Assembly: GCA_024276375.1 (NCBI GenBank)
Contig: JAJRXG010000364.1
Location: 1-46,632, forward strand
Origin: Bacteroidota bacterium
GTDB taxonomy: Bacteria; Bacteroidota; Bacteroidia; Chitinophagales; Saprospiraceae
Direction: 5' to 3'
DNA length: 46,632 nt
The stretch's first letter is position 1, and every line of letters starts with the position of its first letter. This document shows positions 1,524 through 9,866 of the stretch, piece after piece. The notes under the pieces are model-generated. The model saw only the letters and a program-made list of their open reading frames with translations, did not search any database and was not told the origin of the DNA. The position numbers and the translations under genes are program-made.

Positions 1524-2120
1524 CTATTTATGCCTTTTGCTGAGGATTTCAACGACATTTGTCAGAGTCATGCCACGGTTTCTAAGCAAAATGAGAAAAT
1601 GATATAGCAAATCGGCCGCCTCTCCCAAGAACAATTCATCATTGTCATCCTTGGCTTCGATCACAAGTTCTACAGCCTCTTCTCCCACTTTCTGAGCAAC
1701 CTTATTAATACCTTTATCAAAAAGACTACTCGTATAGGATCCAGCTAAACGATTGCGATATCGGTCATCGATTATTGTTTCGAGTCTCCCGAGGAAACCG
1801 TATGTTTCAGGTGCATTAATGCTTCCCCAACAGGTATCAGTACCACGATGACAAGTCGGCCCTTGGGGTTGTGCCTGAACCAGTATCGTATCATTGTCAC
1901 AGTCGAGTGCCATACTGACAAAAACTAAAACGTTGCCACTAGTCTCTCCTTTAGTCCATAGGGTATCTCTCGAACGACTCCAGAAGGTCACCAATCCCGA
2001 AGCCTTCGTCTGCTCAATTGAGGCTTCATTCATATAACCAAGCATAAGCACTTGTCGTGTCGTAGCATCTTGAACAATGGCCGGAACCAAACCTTGGTTA
2101 TCGTATTTGGGTTGTATCAT
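1524..2120 (-). CDS. hisI: bifunctional phosphoribosyl-AMP cyclohydrolase / phosphoribosyl-ATP pyrophosphatase
   Basis: HisI motifs (GYMNEAS, FWSRSRDTLWTKGETSGN, GPTCHRGTDTCW) fused to a HisE domain (KVGEEAVELVIEAK). Confidence 0.96.
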   Translation of the reverse strand: MIQPKYDNQGLVPAIVQDATTRQVLMLGYMNEASIEQTKASGLVTFWSRSRDTLWTKGETSGNVLVFVSMALDCDNDTILVQAQPQGPTCHRGTDTCWGSINAPETYGFLGRLETIIDDRYRNRLAGSYTSSLFDKGINKVAQKVGEEAVELVIEAKDDNDELFLGEAADLLYHFLILLRNRGMTLTNVVEILSKRHK

Positions 2121-2125
2121 ATTGA

Positions 2126-2887
2126 TTATAATCTGATGGGAATCTGAGCTAAATGCAAGTACTGCTTGAGTTCAGGTATGGGTATTTCATCAAAGTGAAA
2201 TATACTCGCAGCAAGACCTGCATCTGCCTTCCCTATTGTAAAAACCTCTTTAAAATGCTCTTTTGTTCCCGCTCCACCTGAAGCGATTATAGGAATACTC
2301 AATAAGGTACTCATATGAGACAACATATCACAGGCAAATCCTTGATGAGTACCATCGTGATCCATAGACGTAAACAAAATCTCTCCCGCGCCGAGATCCT
2401 CCATCTGTCGTGCCCAGTCTAACAGGTCGATACCTGTCGATCGAGATCCTCCATGAGTGTAAACAGACCATCGATCTCCCTCTTTGCGGGCATCTATGGC
2501 AACAACTAAACACTGCGATCCAAATTCCCGAGCAATCTCAGCTGCCAAGGCCGGTCGTTGTACAACGGCACTATTGATACTCACTTTGTCCGCTCCTTGA
2601 GTGAGTAATTTCCTGACTTTCTCAACGTCATAAATACCTCCACCAACTGTAAACGGTATGTTGATTTGCTCCGCTACACGGCGTACCAATTCATAAATCG
2701 TCTCTCTCTCTTCAATAGTAGCCGAAATATCCAGAAAGACAAGTTCGTCTGCTCCTTGAGCTGCATATTTGGATGCCAATTCCACTGGATCGCCCGCATC
2801 TCTTAAGTTAACAAAATTGATCCCTTTTACCGTACGTCCATTTTTGACATCGAGACACGGAATAATTCTTTTGGTCAGCATAATCAA
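2126..2887 (-). CDS. hisF: imidazole glycerol phosphate synthase subunit HisF
   Basis: [41 protein letters not shown]; in his operon. Confidence 0.97.
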
Positions 2888-3603
2888 CTAAATGCTTTGC
2901 GCAATTCTATCAAATCAATCAAGCCTTCATAATAGGCCTTGCCGATAATGACACCTTTTACTCCCATCTCTTCCAGTATTTTAATTTCTTTGATAGAAGA
3001 TACACCTCCACTGGCGATCAAAAATATATCAGGAAAGTTCTCAAGTATGGTATCGTACATCTTCAGAGCCGTACCCTCCATCATGCCATCCTTGCTTACA
3101 TCTGTACAGACAAAGTATTTGGCTCCGGCATCAACAAAGCTATTTATGAATTCCAGAAGATTGTAATCAGAAGTCTCTTGCCATCCATTGACGGAAATCC
3201 TCCCGTCCTTTACATCTGCACCTATTATGATCTGCTCGGGACTATATCTCATCAACCAAAACTTAACCAAATTAGGATTCCGAACCGCCAGACTACCTAT
3301 ATTGACCTGATTAGCTCCGGATCTCAATACCTGAACCAATGAATCCTCACTCTTGACACCTCCTCCAAAATCAATCTTTAAGTTGGTTTCTAAAGCAAGT
3401 TGATTCAATACAAATAGGTTATGCGGATGACGTCCTTTGGCTCCTTGAAGATCGACAAGATGCAGATATTCGTATCCCATAGATTCTATTTCTCTAGCGA
3501 CATCTATGGGTGATTTAGAATACACCTTCTTCTCCTTATAGTCACCTTGTGTCAGTCTTACACATTGACCATCAATAATATCTATTGCCGGTATCAATCT
3601 CAT
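2884..3603 (-). CDS. hisA: phosphoribosylformimino-5-aminoimidazole carboxamide ribotide isomerase
   Basis: [35 protein letters not shown]; 4-nt overlap with hisF. Confidence 0.97.
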
Positions 3604-3606
3604 AAT

Positions 3607-4203
3607 TTATGTTATGCTTCCTTTGACAAAATTAGCAAGAAGGGTTGACCCTATCTTTCCACTTTTTTCAGCATGACACTGAATGCCCCAAAAATTGTCC
3701 TTTCTAATGACAGCTGAAAATACCTCGCCATATGTACATCGAGCGATCGTCTCCTGCATCAATGGTACATAGTAACTATGAACAAAATAAAAATAACTCT
3801 TATCCGCGATATCAGTCCATAACACATCGTCTTCTTCTATATGTACTGTGTTCCATCCCATATGCGGTATTTTGAGCCCCGATGCTACATCAAATTTTCT
3901 CACACATCTATCAACGATGCCCAGACATGCTATATTCCCTTCCTCAGAACGCTTACACATCAACTGCATTCCAACACATATCCCCAACACAGGTTGTGTC
4001 AATTGTCTAATCACTGTTGTCAAATTTCTCCTGCGCAATGCATCCATCGCCGCCGCAGCATGACCGACACCGGGAAAAATCACCTTCTCCGCAGCTCTTA
4101 ACTGTTCAGCATCATCCGTAAGAACATAACTCACATCCAAGCGATCAAGTGCATTCATAACTGATCGAGTGTTGCCTGCATCATAATCGATAATCGCAAT
4201 CAT
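3607..4203 (-). CDS. hisH: imidazole glycerol phosphate synthase glutaminase subunit HisH
   Basis: MIAIIDYDAGNTRSVMNAL, PGVGHAAAAMD, GICVGMQLM, WGIQCHAEKSG. Confidence 0.97.
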   Translation of the reverse strand: MIAIIDYDAGNTRSVMNALDRLDVSYVLTDDAEQLRAAEKVIFPGVGHAAAAMDALRRRNLTTVIRQLTQPVLGICVGMQLMCKRSEEGNIACLGIVDRCVRKFDVASGLKIPHMGWNTVHIEEDDVLWTDIADKSYFYFVHSYYVPLMQETIARCTYGEVFSAVIRKDNFWGIQCHAEKSGKIGSTLLANFVKGSIT

Positions 4204-5324
4204 AACACTCCTTTGGTTGAAGGCAACTGATCACTCGTCCCATCTCTGACTACACTCATCTTTATCGCTTTCGCAAATGCCTTAAAGACACCTTCTATCT
4301 TATGATGCTCATTCTCTCCTTCCGCTTTGATATTCAGATTGCATTGTGCATGATCGGAAAACGATTTGAAAAAATGATAAAACATCTCTGTAGGAACATC
4401 TCCAACATACTCCCTATTAAAATGAACATCCCATTCTATCCATGCCCGACCACCCCAATCCAAGGCTACTTGTGCAAGTACATCATCCATAGGCAGACAA
4501 AATCCATAACGCTCAATGCCTACTTTTTTGCCCAAAGCTTCCCTAAACGCTCTACCCAGAGCAATCCCCGTATCCTCTATCGTGTGATGTTCATCTATCT
4601 CAAGGTCTCCCCTCGCCTCTATCGTTAAGTCCAACTGCCCATGTCGAGCAATCTGGTTGAGCATATGATCAAAAAAATGTAATCCCGTATCAATATTTCC
4701 ACGTCCTTGACCATCGAGATCCAAATCTATACAAATCCTTGTCTCATAGGTCGATCTCAATAGACGTGCTTGTCTCGGCAAATCCTTCAAATAGTCGTAA
4801 ATCTCCTTCCAGGAATCCGCCCTGAGTACTACGTCATTACTTAATTCTACCGGGACTTTAGCCTCTCTTCCCATATCCTCATGAAGAAAAATCCCCTTTG
4901 CTCCTAGATTTTTGGCCAACTCCATATCACTCCACCTGTCACCGATCACATATGATCCCGCCAGATCATACGAACCCCGAAAATACTTCTTGAGCATTCC
5001 GATACCCGGCTTTCGATAGGGTGAACCATCTGACTCCAGACTCCTATCTATATGAATTTCTTCAAATACTATTCCTTCCCCAGCCAGCGTTTCCACCATC
5101 AACTCTTGCAATGGCCAAAAATCAGATTCCGGATAGCTATCTGTCCCCAAGCCATCTTGATTGGTGACCATCACAAGTCGATAATCCAGTTCTCGTACGA
5201 TCTTGCCCAAATAAGTCATCATCATCGGAAAAAATGAAAACTTACTCAATTGATCCACTTGGTAATCTTCCTTAGGTTCACGGATCAACGTGCCATCTCT
5301 ATCTATAAACAATACTTTCTTCAT
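4200..5324 (-). CDS. hisB: bifunctional histidinol-phosphatase / imidazoleglycerol-phosphate dehydratase
   Basis: N-terminal HAD phosphatase (FIDRDGTLIREP) fused to IGPD (GLHFFDHMLNQIARHG, DEHHTIEDTGIALG). Confidence 0.96.
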   Translation of the reverse strand: MKKVLFIDRDGTLIREPKEDYQVDQLSKFSFFPMMMTYLGKIVRELDYRLVMVTNQDGLGTDSYPESDFWPLQELMVETLAGEGIVFEEIHIDRSLESDGSPYRKPGIGMLKKYFRGSYDLAGSYVIGDRWSDMELAKNLGAKGIFLHEDMGREAKVPVELSNDVVLRADSWKEIYDYLKDLPRQARLLRSTYETRICIDLDLDGQGRGNIDTGLHFFDHMLNQIARHGQLDLTIEARGDLEIDEHHTIEDTGIALGRAFREALGKKVGIERYGFCLPMDDVLAQVALDWGGRAWIEWDVHFNREYVGDVPTEMFYHFFKSFSDHAQCNLNIKAEGENEHHKIEGVFKAFAKAIKMSVVRDGTSDQLPSTKGVL

Positions 5325-6364
5325 TTTTTATTCAAAGCATAAAATTCATTAATGTTTGCTATGAGTTGTGCATTCTCATCATGCATACCCACAGTGATTC
5401 TCAAGCATTGCTCACAGCCCGGAAGTGTGCTTCGATCGCGTACTATGATACCATGATCTTCTAAAAAATCCTTCAACTCAAGATGATCCTCAAAGCGTAC
5501 CAATAAAAAATTTGATTCAGAGGGATATATCTTTATCACTTCCTCAATCCCCGACAGAAATCTTCTCATGCGTTCCCTTTCGGAAATAATGGATGCCAAA
5601 TCACCAGACTCCATCAAGGCAGTTATGAGTTCTTCGGCTATCTCTTGAGTCAATGACCCAATATTATACGGTGGCTTGACTTTATTCAAATACTTGACAA
5701 CAACCACATCAGCATAACAAATCCCGACCCTCAATCCAGCCCCTCCCAAGGACTTAGAAAACGTCTGCAAGACAATGAGATGATTCAACCGCTCTATCTC
5801 CTTTAGCAGAGAATCCTGTTGACTAAAGTCAATATAAGCCTCATCCACTACGACTATTCCCTGCCAACCTTCTATAACAGTAAGTAAGTCGGATGGGTTG
5901 AGGTCATTGCCGGTCGGATTATTGGGAGAACACATAAAGAGTAACTTGTTATGCTCTGTCTGATCTCTCAAACAAGCATCTACATCAAGTTGAAAGTCTA
6001 AATTCAATGGTATGCTTTCTACCGCAACATCATGGATACGCGAGGATACTTCATACATTCCAAATGTCGGTTCTATAACCCGCACTATGTCCTTGCCCGG
6101 AACACAAAATGTCCGTATGATCATATCTATTATCTCATCAGAACCATTGCCCAATATGATCTGATCCACCTCAATATTTCTCCATTGTGCGATCTTGGCT
6201 CGTAACTTTTTATGAAAGGGATCGGGATACCTATTGTATCGCGATGGCTCGGGATGCTCATTGGCATCTAAGTATATATCCGCATGACCGGCAAATTCTG
6301 ATCTTGCAGATCGAAATGGTCTCAGGGATACAATATTGGGTCTTACCAAAGCTTCTAAATTCAT
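5321..6364 (-). CDS. hisC: histidinol-phosphate aminotransferase
   Basis: PLP aminotransferase motifs (NGSDEIIDMIIRTF, SPNNPTGN, VVDEAYIDFS, FSKSLGGAGLRVG); his operon. Confidence 0.95.
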   Translation of the reverse strand: MNLEALVRPNIVSLRPFRSARSEFAGHADIYLDANEHPEPSRYNRYPDPFHKKLRAKIAQWRNIEVDQIILGNGSDEIIDMIIRTFCVPGKDIVRVIEPTFGMYEVSSRIHDVAVESIPLNLDFQLDVDACLRDQTEHNKLLFMCSPNNPTGNDLNPSDLLTVIEGWQGIVVVDEAYIDFSQQDSLLKEIERLNHLIVLQTFSKSLGGAGLRVGICYADVVVVKYLNKVKPPYNIGSLTQEIAEELITALMESGDLASIISERERMRRFLSGIEEVIKIYPSESNFLLVRFEDHLELKDFLEDHGIIVRDRSTLPGCEQCLRITVGMHDENAQLIANINEFYALNKK

Positions 6365-7656
6365 AACCGTTTCATTCTTATGCTTACCGAATTTGCATGT
6401 CCTGCTAGCTTCTCGTGTTCCGCCATAGTAATAACTGTAGCGCCAAGATTATTGAGCCCACTTGGGTTCATTTCTTGAAATGTTATCTTCTTCACAAATG
6501 AATCCAAAGACAAACCGCTATATGATTTGGCATATCCCGAAGTGGGGAGTGTGTGATTGGTACCGGAAGCATAGTCCCCGACACTCTCCGGTGTCCAATG
6601 ACCTATAAAAACAGATCCGGCATTTCGGATCATTGGCAACATCTCTCGACCGTTGTCCAAGGCCAATATCAAATGCTCCGGAGCATAGTCATTGATAAAA
6701 TCAAAAGCTCTCCTGACATCCTTGATTACACACGCAAAACCATGTCCCAAGGCTCGTATGGCCAACAATTTTCTCGGAAGTTGATCTAATTGCTCAATCA
6801 AATGATCGTTAACCGCATGAACTATCTGCTCTGTTGTGGCCACCAGTATGACTTGGCTATCAGCACCATGTTCAGCTTGTGAAATCAGATCCGCGGCAAC
6901 AAATTCAGGATAACAAGTCTCATCCGCATATACCAAAACCTCTGAAGGCCCCGCAGGAAGATCTATCGCAATACCATACTCTAAAGCCTTCATCTTAGCA
7001 GTGGTAACATATTGATTGCCAGGGCCAAATACTTTGTTGACTCTAGGAATTGTTTCCGTACCGAACACCATACCCGCAATCGCTTGTGCCCCTCCCACCA
7101 TGTATATGCGCCTCAAACCACATCTTGCCGCCGCGTACAGAATGGCCGGATGTACAGATCCATCTGCTCGCGGGGGTGTACACAATACAACGTTGGCACA
7201 ACCTGCTATCTGTGCCGGAATAGCCAACATCAAGACAGTGCTGAACAATGGAGCAGTTCCTCCCGGTACATACAAACCTACACTTTGGATCGCTCGCATC
7301 TCCCGCCAACAAGTTACACCTTGAGTCGTCTCGATCTCCTGTGGCTCATATTGTTGCACTCTATGAAATGAAGCAATATTGGCATAAGCTTGATCGATCG
7401 CTCTACGAAGATCATCCGGTATATCGGGTTTGACCAAAACCTCTTGATCAATATGTACTACAACATCATCTATTGCCACTTGGTCAAATCGCTTTGTCAA
7501 TTCGATGAGGCCGCGATCTCCACTAGATCGGACTTGTTCAAACACTTCATCCATCAACGAAGACAACTCCGCTTGATTGATCTCCGGTCGTTGCACCAGT
7601 CGAGCTATCTGATCCTTTGAAGGTTCTATATGTATCCTGAGTTGGGAATATTGCAT
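6361..7656 (-). CDS. hisD: histidinol dehydrogenase
   Basis: GLYVPGGTAPLFSTVLMLAIPA, FGPGNQYVTTAK, GPSEVLVYAD, NHTLPTSGYAKSYSGLS. Confidence 0.97.
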   Translation of the reverse strand: MQYSQLRIHIEPSKDQIARLVQRPEINQAELSSLMDEVFEQVRSSGDRGLIELTKRFDQVAIDDVVVHIDQEVLVKPDIPDDLRRAIDQAYANIASFHRVQQYEPQEIETTQGVTCWREMRAIQSVGLYVPGGTAPLFSTVLMLAIPAQIAGCANVVLCTPPRADGSVHPAILYAAARCGLRRIYMVGGAQAIAGMVFGTETIPRVNKVFGPGNQYVTTAKMKALEYGIAIDLPAGPSEVLVYADETCYPEFVAADLISQAEHGADSQVILVATTEQIVHAVNDHLIEQLDQLPRKLLAIRALGHGFACVIKDVRRAFDFINDYAPEHLILALDNGREMLPMIRNAGSVFIGHWTPESVGDYASGTNHTLPTSGYAKSYSGLSLDSFVKKITFQEMNPSGLNNLGATVITMAEHEKLAGHANSVSIRMKRL

Positions 7657-8510
7657 CAGACGACCATTTTTTCGATGGGAACTATCAATATGTCCTCTGC
7701 CCCCAATTCTTTCAATCTATTGATGACATTCCAAAAATCATCTTCTCTAATCACAGAATGAAGCGAACTCCACCCCGCTTCTACTAGTGGCAATACAGTC
7801 GGACTTTTTAGTACAGGTAGCACAGAACTTATTTGCTCTATGCGCTCATTGGGAACATTCATCAATATGTATCTGTTCTGTTGTGCTTTTAAGACTGTGC
7901 GGATTCGAAACAAAAGTTGATCAACAAGCGCTCGTTTTTTCGCAGTGAGATTCTTATTGATCGCAAGACAAGCTTGAGATTGCAATATCACCGTCTGCTC
8001 TTCAAGGCCATTTTTAAACAAGGTGCTCCCAGAACTCACCAAATCGCAGATGGCGTCTGCCAATCCAATATTGGGAGCAATTTCAACCGATCCGCTGATC
8101 AAATGGATACTGGCATCAATACCATTATCATCAAGAAACTTTGTCAAGGTATTGGGATAAGAAGTGGCGATGCGCTTGCCCTGTAGATCTTGGATATCTC
8201 TATAAGATACCCCTTTGGGCAAGGCAATTGACAAACGGCATTTTTGAAATCCGAGGTATTCTATAATCTCAACATCGGCTTCCTTCTCGATAATCGTATT
8301 CTCACCGAGTACAGCTATATCAGCGACACCGTCTTCAAGGTACTTGGGTATATCGCTATTGCGGAGAAACAATGCATGCGCATCAAATCCCCGAAAGGCG
8401 GCACGCAATTGGTCATTGGTGTTATGCACCCGCAGTCCAATACTTCCTAACAATCTGGTCGTATCGTCATAGAGACGTCCTGATTTTTGTATTGCGATGT
8501 TTAAACTCAT
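7656..8510 (-). CDS. hisG: ATP phosphoribosyltransferase (long form)
   Basis: MSLNIAIQKSGRLYDDT, GVADIAVLGENT, RIATSYPNTLTKFL, plus C-terminal regulatory domain; first gene of the operon. Confidence 0.96.
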   Translation of the reverse strand: MSLNIAIQKSGRLYDDTTRLLGSIGLRVHNTNDQLRAAFRGFDAHALFLRNSDIPKYLEDGVADIAVLGENTIIEKEADVEIIEYLGFQKCRLSIALPKGVSYRDIQDLQGKRIATSYPNTLTKFLDDNGIDASIHLISGSVEIAPNIGLADAICDLVSSGSTLFKNGLEEQTVILQSQACLAINKNLTAKKRALVDQLLFRIRTVLKAQQNRYILMNVPNERIEQISSVLPVLKSPTVLPLVEAGWSSLHSVIREDDFWNVINRLKELGAEDILIVPIEKMVV

Positions 8511-8521
8511 TGTTAAGCATT

Positions 8522-8551
8522 AAAAAACCCGCTTGCTTGTGGCGAGCGGGT
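8522..8551 (-). terminator. his operon attenuator: intrinsic terminator between leader ORF and hisG
   Basis: Minus-strand ACCCGCTCGC-CACAA-GCAAGCGGGT followed by TTTTTT, starting 34 nt after the leader stop and ending 12 nt before the hisG ATG. Confidence 0.85.
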
Positions 8552-8584
8552 CAATTTATCTAAATTAATTCTTCCTCACAAAGA

Positions 8585-8656
8585 TCATAGACACCATATC
8601 TCCACACCCCCACTTGAGGTAATATGATTGCGATGATGCCTACCAAAAATTTTCAT
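8585..8656 (-). CDS. his operon leader peptide (23 aa: MKIFGRHHRNHITSSGGVEIWCL)
   Basis: Short ORF read directly from the minus strand upstream of hisG; His-His-Arg-Asn-His codons followed by a terminator. Not in the supplied ORF track because of its size. Confidence 0.75.
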   Translation of the reverse strand: MKIFGRHHRNHITSSGGVEIWCL

Positions 8657-8660
8657 AACA

Positions 8661-8668
8661 CAAGTATA
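8661..8668 (-). promoter_or_regulatory. putative -7 promoter element of the his operon
   Basis: Minus-strand TATACTTG, one mismatch to Bacteroidota consensus TAnnTTTG, 4 nt upstream of the leader ATG. Confidence 0.4.
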
Positions 8669-8752: not shown

Positions 8753-8845
8753 TCTTTAGGATTACTATTCAGGAGGGTGCTTTTGAAATAAAAAAAGGCA
8801 ATTTTTTCGTCAGATGACGCCTACCTGAATAGTAACTCTTTAGGA
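8753..8845. repeat. MITE-like element: 12-bp perfect inverted repeats flanked by 9-bp direct repeats
   Basis: TTACTATTCAGG (8762-8773) and CCTGAATAGTAA (8824-8835); direct repeats TCTTTAGGA at 8753-8761 and 8837-8845. Confidence 0.55.
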
Positions 8846-8973: not shown

Positions 8974-9866
8974 ATGCCCGTGTTAAAGATCAAAAATCTA
9001 TCCAAATCATATGGTCGTACTAAGGCCTTAGACAATCTCAATCTTACAATTGAGAAAGGTCAGGTATGTGGCATTCTCGGCCCCAATGGCAGCGGCAAAA
9101 CTACCACTTTGGGTATCATTCTTAATATTTTAAAAAAAGATAGTGGTAGTTATGAGTGGTTTGATGGAGCCTATGGTGAACGGGCAAGATTAAAAATCGG
9201 AACGATTCTCGAAACTCCCAATTTCTACCCTTATATGAATGCCGCCCAAAACCTCGATATCGTTCGCCAAATAAAAGGCGTAGAAAGAATAAACAGTGAT
9301 GAGCTTCTGCAACAGGTAAATCTCGCCCATCGAAAAAAACATCCTTTAGAGCCTATTCTCTAGGTATGAAGCAGCGTCTCGCCATTGCTGCGACACTTAT
9401 CGGAGAGCCTGAAGTATTGATTTTTGACGAACCTACCAATGGTCTAGACCCCGAAGGAATCTCTGAAGTGAGAAGTATCTTGTCACATATCGCCTCGTCC
9501 GGTAGAACGGTCATTATGGCTTCTCATTTGCTCGATGAAGTTGAAAAAATATGCTCTCATGTCGCTATTATCAAAGCCGGCACCTTGCTCGCAACCGGAC
9601 CGGTTGGTTCCATACTCAACGACAACGTAACACTTGAAATAGATGCACCTGACAGAGAACGCTTACTTGCGCATATCAATAGTCTTCAAATCTCAAGTCA
9701 CGTCACAGAAACCCCAAAATGGGTAGAATGTGTATTGACAGATGATGTTGACATTGTAGCATTGAGTAGGAGTTTTTATGAAGCGGGGATCATACCCACA
9801 CATTTTGCAACTCGTAAGAAAAAACTCGAAGAGGAGTTCTTGGAGATCACACGAGCATCACATTAA
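8974..9866 (+). CDS. ABC transporter ATP-binding protein split into two frames (8974-9363 and 9366-9866); full-length if a -1 shift occurs at the A7 run
   Basis: First ORF has Walker A GPNGSGKTTT; second has Walker B VLIFDEPTNGLDPEG and H-loop; signature YSLGMKQRLA is restored only by a -1 shift at 9333-9339. Confidence 0.8.

Follow-up and report, generated by a model that had tools for sequence, protein, structure and literature searches.

A highly probable ribosome-mediated attenuator upstream of hisG in a Saprospiraceae genome, with His-rich leaders in many Bacteroidota families

The his attenuator of enterobacteria (hisL; Rfam RF00514) combines a His-rich leader peptide, mutually exclusive hairpins and a terminator before hisG, the first gene of the his operon. 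A survey based on Rfam models pointed to a possible origin of amino acid attenuators in gamma-proteobacteria, with few transfers (PMC3766115). Comparative analysis has also predicted his attenuators in three groups of Firmicutes, the Bacillus cereus group, Peptostreptococcaceae and Erysipelotrichales; these leaders carry three to five His codons, a terminator and an antiterminator, and the main text of that paper is silent on Bacteroidota (PMC9413887). For Bacteroidota themselves, leaders go unmentioned in the main text of a study of the his genes (PMC8305728). The transcriptome of Flavobacterium psychrophilum, on the other hand, gave indications that amino acid operons are subject to leader peptide attenuation, and revealed a structured element upstream of hisG that is conserved in Flavobacteriaceae and has no Rfam match, although the main text presents neither a hisG leader peptide nor an antiterminator (PMC9723704). 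An earlier prediction of Bacteroidota his leaders may also be contained in the survey of Lopatovskaya et al. 2010. The attenuator class is thus known already, and its presence in Bacteroidota has been hinted at, including the published hints for Flavobacterium hisG.

In the present work, we analyze a leader upstream of hisG in 46,632 nt of a contig from a Saprospiraceae genome (hereafter, "the window" is this whole stretch of DNA). We consider it highly likely that this leader is a ribosome-mediated transcription attenuator of the his operon. It resembles the enterobacterial system in its parts and in having hisG as the first gene of the operon, and differs from it in several respects: its His runs are shorter and more varied (HHRNH here, mostly 4-6 His in eight residues in the family); its sequence and hairpins are different; RF00514 is blind to the window; and the leader has a predicted leaderless start here and lies behind tRNA-Phe in some relatives. 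The Firmicutes leaders have the same kinds of parts as those of Bacteroidota but belong to another phylum. With the F. psychrophilum element, as far as it is described in the main text, the window leader has in common the phylum, the gene and the lack of an Rfam match, the family being another. The present analysis adds the antiterminator, the conservation across family and phylum, the inability of the Rfam model to recognise these leaders, the prediction of a leaderless start and the arrangement with tRNA-Phe.

The leader and its locus

The source genome is a member of Saprospiraceae, its best named relatives being Saprospiraceae MAGs, Neolewinella and Lewinella. The leader and the genes behind it lie on the minus strand:

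8585..8656 (-): his leader peptide ORF, MKIFGRHHRNHITSSGGVEIWCL and stop, 23 codons (sequence; His-rich homologues upstream of hisG)
8624..8638 (-): regulatory His codons 7, 8 and 11, CAT CAT CGC AAT CAT (sequence)
8522..8551 (-): intrinsic terminator with T6, ACCCGCTCGCCACAAGCAAGCGGGTTTTTT (best-scored hairpin from 8552; -15.0 kcal/mol, more stable than 20 of 20 shuffles)
7656..8510 (-): hisG in its long form, including the C-terminal regulatory domain; it heads the operon (TIGR00070, TIGR03455)
1524..7656 (-): hisD, hisC, bifunctional hisB, hisH, hisA, hisF and hisIE, the remaining his operon (NCBIfam)

The operon is complete, with hisG followed by seven his genes identified by NCBIfam models, and the regulated genes therefore match the amino acid of the leader. 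The terminator ends 11-12 nt before the hisG start codon, an ATG at 8510 on the minus strand. A preliminary description, made from the letters of this DNA, had reported the 23-codon ORF with three His codons and the hairpin with T6 upstream of hisG, and both are exact in the sequence; its naming of hisG is borne out by the two NCBIfam models, and the genome that it called "Bacteroidota-like" is indeed from that phylum.

Taken by themselves, the three His codons of the window (three among 23 residues) are a weak signal against chance. On the two strands of the 46.6 kb, six short ATG ORFs contain three His within five residues, and at least three His in eight residues arise in 1.4% of dinucleotide shuffles of the window's own upstream region. 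The complete leader RNA has a folding z of -2.15, with 5 of 200 shuffles folding as well.

Searches of the window with Rfam returned no match to the His_leader model RF00514, either at the gathering threshold or at E <= 10, and in 20 relatives the best score of that model was 39 bits, reached in one of them, against a gathering cut-off of 49. Neither the T-box leader RF00230 nor any riboswitch was found in the window at gathering or relaxed thresholds. A sub-threshold Trp_leader match (E = 0.76) was rejected, as were the best Rfam matches, which are to microRNA models, meaningless in a bacterium, and fall on an inverted repeat at 8753-8845.

A 76-bp copy of a mobile element occupies 8761-8836 (within 8753-8844), about 100 bp upstream of the leader; its ends are inverted (GTTACTATTCAGG...CCTGAATAGTAAT) and its 8-bp target duplication, CCTAAAGA, is perfect. 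The element has about 40 matching places in the genome, mostly about 165 bp long and in several cases at contig ends. The copy in the window has been shortened internally, and another short copy (L129) has the 8-bp duplication AAATCTTG. The copies form a MITE-like family. The gene upstream of the leader is divergent. It encodes an ABC transporter ATPase (8974-9866 on the plus strand) as two ORFs in different frames, 8974-9363 and 9366-9866; the split falls just before the signature motif and is a frameshift, either genuine or an assembly error.

Leaders and terminators in relatives

We collected hisG upstream regions from a sample of the family and from 37 named contigs, which gave 120 regions after removal of duplicates. 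In 105 of them, a short ORF has three or more His within eight residues. For a stricter comparison, we used the 115 Bacteroidota regions of sufficient length, restricted to 350 nt: 103 hold a His-rich short ORF at the level of at least three His, versus 4.3 in shuffles, and 93 at the level of at least four, versus 0.3, while the antisense strand of the same regions gives 8 and 2, respectively. It is this conservation in relatives that places the leader far beyond chance.

Within the family, leaders mostly have 4-6 His in eight residues, and only 10 of 104 loci have three. The closest relatives carry MNTKGHTHFHLHGHLTLG (L003) and MKLTIHIHVHHTHRVHLLW (L004), with five or six His, and a locus of the same genus (L005) carries MKNMVNHHTLAYVHHLMNKRC, with HH and HH. 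The window, whose three His codons are non-contiguous, is thus at the low end of the family, and this counts against an attenuator. Two His-rich short ORFs precede hisG in L064, L100, L106 and L109.

Between leader and hisG, a terminator is found in 103 of the 104 homologous leaders, each more stable than 20 of 20 shuffles, and in essentially all relatives the hairpin is followed by a T-run. The gap to hisG varies from about 15 nt to more than 200 nt; in L014, L041, L047 and L051, leader and terminator lie more than 190 nt from the gene.

Outside the family, 45 of 58 hisG regions from other Bacteroidota families have a His-rich leader. It is present in all sampled members of families f2, f3, f4, f5, f8, f10, f11, f16, f23, f34 and f42, mixed or ambiguous in f21 and f29, and was not found in the sampled hisG regions of f9, f14, f15, f17, f18, f19, f25 and f28. 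The leaders of f5 and Flavobacteriia loci, such as MFTIQLHHHHFHYCSQAMC, are very probably of the same kind as the hisG element described in Flavobacteriaceae.

Alternative pairings and the proposed mechanism

Four segments of the window leader can enter alternative pairings:

8633..8642 (-): segment 1, TAGGCATCAT, overlapping the first two His codons and pairing with 8597-8588 (minimum-energy fold)
8588..8597 (-): partner of segment 1, ATGGTGTCTA; the segment 1 hairpin encloses segment 2 (minimum-energy fold)
8601..8614 (-): segment 2, the antiterminator, AGTGGGGGTGTGGA, pairing with 8551-8538 (family swap test)
8538..8551 (-): segment 3, the terminator 5' arm with its loop, to which segment 2 can pair instead (nascent folding, duplex energy)

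The antiterminator of the window pairs AGUGGGGGUGUGGA (8614-8601) with ACCCGCUCGCCACA (8551-8538) at -15.9 kcal/mol. Folds of many relatives have a segment 2 like GCAGATGGTG, which can pair with the His codons (CACCAT) or, alternatively, with the loop of the terminator (ACCATTTGC).

We folded the nascent RNA at the point before the terminator 3' arm exists, placing a stalled ribosome on the cluster's first His codon. Across 102 loci, the terminator 5' arm and loop then pair upstream with a mean probability of 0.64, compared to 0.44 when the linkers are shuffled, 0.32 when no ribosome is present and 0.18 when the ribosome has reached the stop codon. In the window, the values with the ribosome stalled (0.69) and without it (0.60) are nearly equal, which counts against attenuation. 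Folding the complete leader to equilibrium with a stalled ribosome was set aside, as the terminator nearly always wins and the states cannot be separated; the attenuation model therefore needs co-transcriptional folding.

The complementarity of segments 2 and 3 was measured by a swap (covariation) test over 100 loci, in which the segment 2 of each locus was paired with the terminator arm of every other. With row and column means removed, native duplexes are 4.29 kcal/mol better than swapped ones (z = -14.5). Kinship among the loci improves the swapped pairs and so makes the test conservative, but the loci are not independent. Shuffling segment 2 cuts the advantage to 0.2-0.6. The terminator itself, as a positive control, gives z = -27, and segments 1 and 2 give z = -7.5 (100 loci). 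Locus by locus, the native segment 2:3 duplex beats 95% of its own shuffles in 60 of 100 cases. The window's own duplex is no better than its shuffles (p = 0.37), so that the antiterminator at this locus rests on the family. Modeled for the family as a whole, then, the leaders have an antiterminator that excludes the terminator and would be freed by stalling at the regulatory codons, whereas the window on its own gives p = 0.37.

The preliminary description had proposed ribosome-mediated his attenuation, with conservation in relatives as a check, and had left the antiterminator open. The leaders, terminators and alternative pairings of relatives now support the proposal: His codons and hairpin are kept in L003, L004 and L005, in the family and in many other Bacteroidota families, and the antiterminator has been located (8614-8601 with 8551-8538), with the swap test over 100 loci behind it. 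Direct support thus exists for the parts, for their conservation and for the family-wide complementarity of the alternative pairings.

We infer the start site, the stalling, the termination and the histidine response of the his leader as follows. Transcription would begin at or beside the leader ATG, with a ribosome trailing the polymerase. When His-tRNA is ample, the ribosome would get to the stop codon and mask segment 2 (8614-8601); the terminator (8551-8522) would then form and transcription would stop before hisG. If charged His-tRNA runs low, the ribosome would stall at the His codons (8638-8624), covering segment 1 and freeing segment 2, which would capture the terminator 5' arm (8551-8538) before the 3' arm is made, and the operon would be transcribed. 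If there is no translation, the segment 1 hairpin (8642-8633 with 8597-8588) would tend to bury segment 2. Judging from the sequence, expression of the his operon is very probably switched on when histidine is short.

One alternative is that the attenuator is decaying, the His run having eroded to HHRNH in the window's lineage and the hairpin serving for the most part as a partial terminator of fixed strength that hardly responds to histidine. The small number of His codons (three, two of them contiguous, against the typical 4-6 of the family), the non-significant antiterminator of the window (p = 0.37) and the draft state of the assembly (414 contigs) would fit such decay. However, the ORF is intact, the terminator is strong and every alternative pairing is present in the window, and the same-genus L005 has HH and HH, with five or six His in L003 and L004; we regard decay as improbable. 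It is less probable still that attenuation is translational, the hairpin blocking ribosome loading on hisG until stalling at the His codons relieves the block. The 11-12 nt between terminator and hisG ATG are few enough to hinder initiation, but a T-run follows the hairpin in essentially all relatives, and the distance to hisG, about 15 to over 200 nt among them, varies, whereas an initiation block needs a short, fixed one. Finally, a chance ORF beside the ordinary terminator of another transcript is the least probable reading: three-His-in-five short ORFs do arise six times in the window, but ORF, terminator and alternative pairings are all conserved in relatives, which refutes chance at the level of the family, and the upstream gene is divergent, leaving no co-directional gene for the terminator to serve.

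Transcript start and the tRNA-Phe arrangement

One further element bears on the start of the leader transcript:

8661..8668 (-): predicted sigma-A -7 box, TATACTTG (consensus TAnnTTTG), 4 nt before the leader ATG (sequence; spacing in relatives)

A box-like sequence lies at the same 4 nt from the leader start codon in eight further loci, including L003, L004 and L005, and at 5 nt in L081. Of the 64 loci that have no tRNA next to the leader, 56 carry a box matching at least five of six positions within 45 nt, versus 24 in shuffles, and most of these have a longer 5' UTR than the window. In F. psychrophilum, the box TAnnTTTG spans -12 to -5 and about 5.5% of mRNAs are leaderless (PMC9723704). 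The same spacing would put the transcript start of the window on the A of the leader ATG, and the leader mRNA is accordingly predicted to be leaderless, with its start at 8656.

A different arrangement is seen in part of the sample. In 43 of the 120 regions, there is a tRNA-Phe(GAA) gene upstream in the same orientation, and in 26 Saprospiraceae loci (L016, L035, L036, L038, L039, L040, L062 and 19 more) its 3' end is 0-26 nt from the leader ATG, the gap being zero in seven Neolewinella-type loci. Such gaps leave hardly any space for a promoter, so that leader and operon probably depend on the tRNA promoter; judging by this layout, those 26 loci probably transcribe tRNA-Phe together with the his operon. 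In four genomes tested, the tRNA-Phe next to the leader has no second full-length, high-identity match. No such tRNA-Phe was found in the 58 hisG regions of other Bacteroidota families. In the window's genome, the best match to this tRNA-Phe is on another contig, and a search of that genome for the tRNA 3'-end pattern found nothing.

A broader reading is that his attenuation is an ancient, phylum-wide device in Bacteroidota rather than an occasional gamma-proteobacterial import, and that in part of Saprospiraceae the attenuator became attached behind tRNA-Phe, with the tRNA promoter driving the his operon and tRNA 3' processing making a (nearly) leaderless mRNA; we hold this to be evenly balanced between right and wrong. 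Since his leaders are widespread in Bacteroidota and missed by RF00514, the current view of which bacteria use attenuation is biased by the models. The his leaders would give Bacteroidota a natural means of reporting on transcription-translation coupling, and the arrangement with tRNA-Phe offers a link, open to test, from tRNA synthesis to an amino acid operon.
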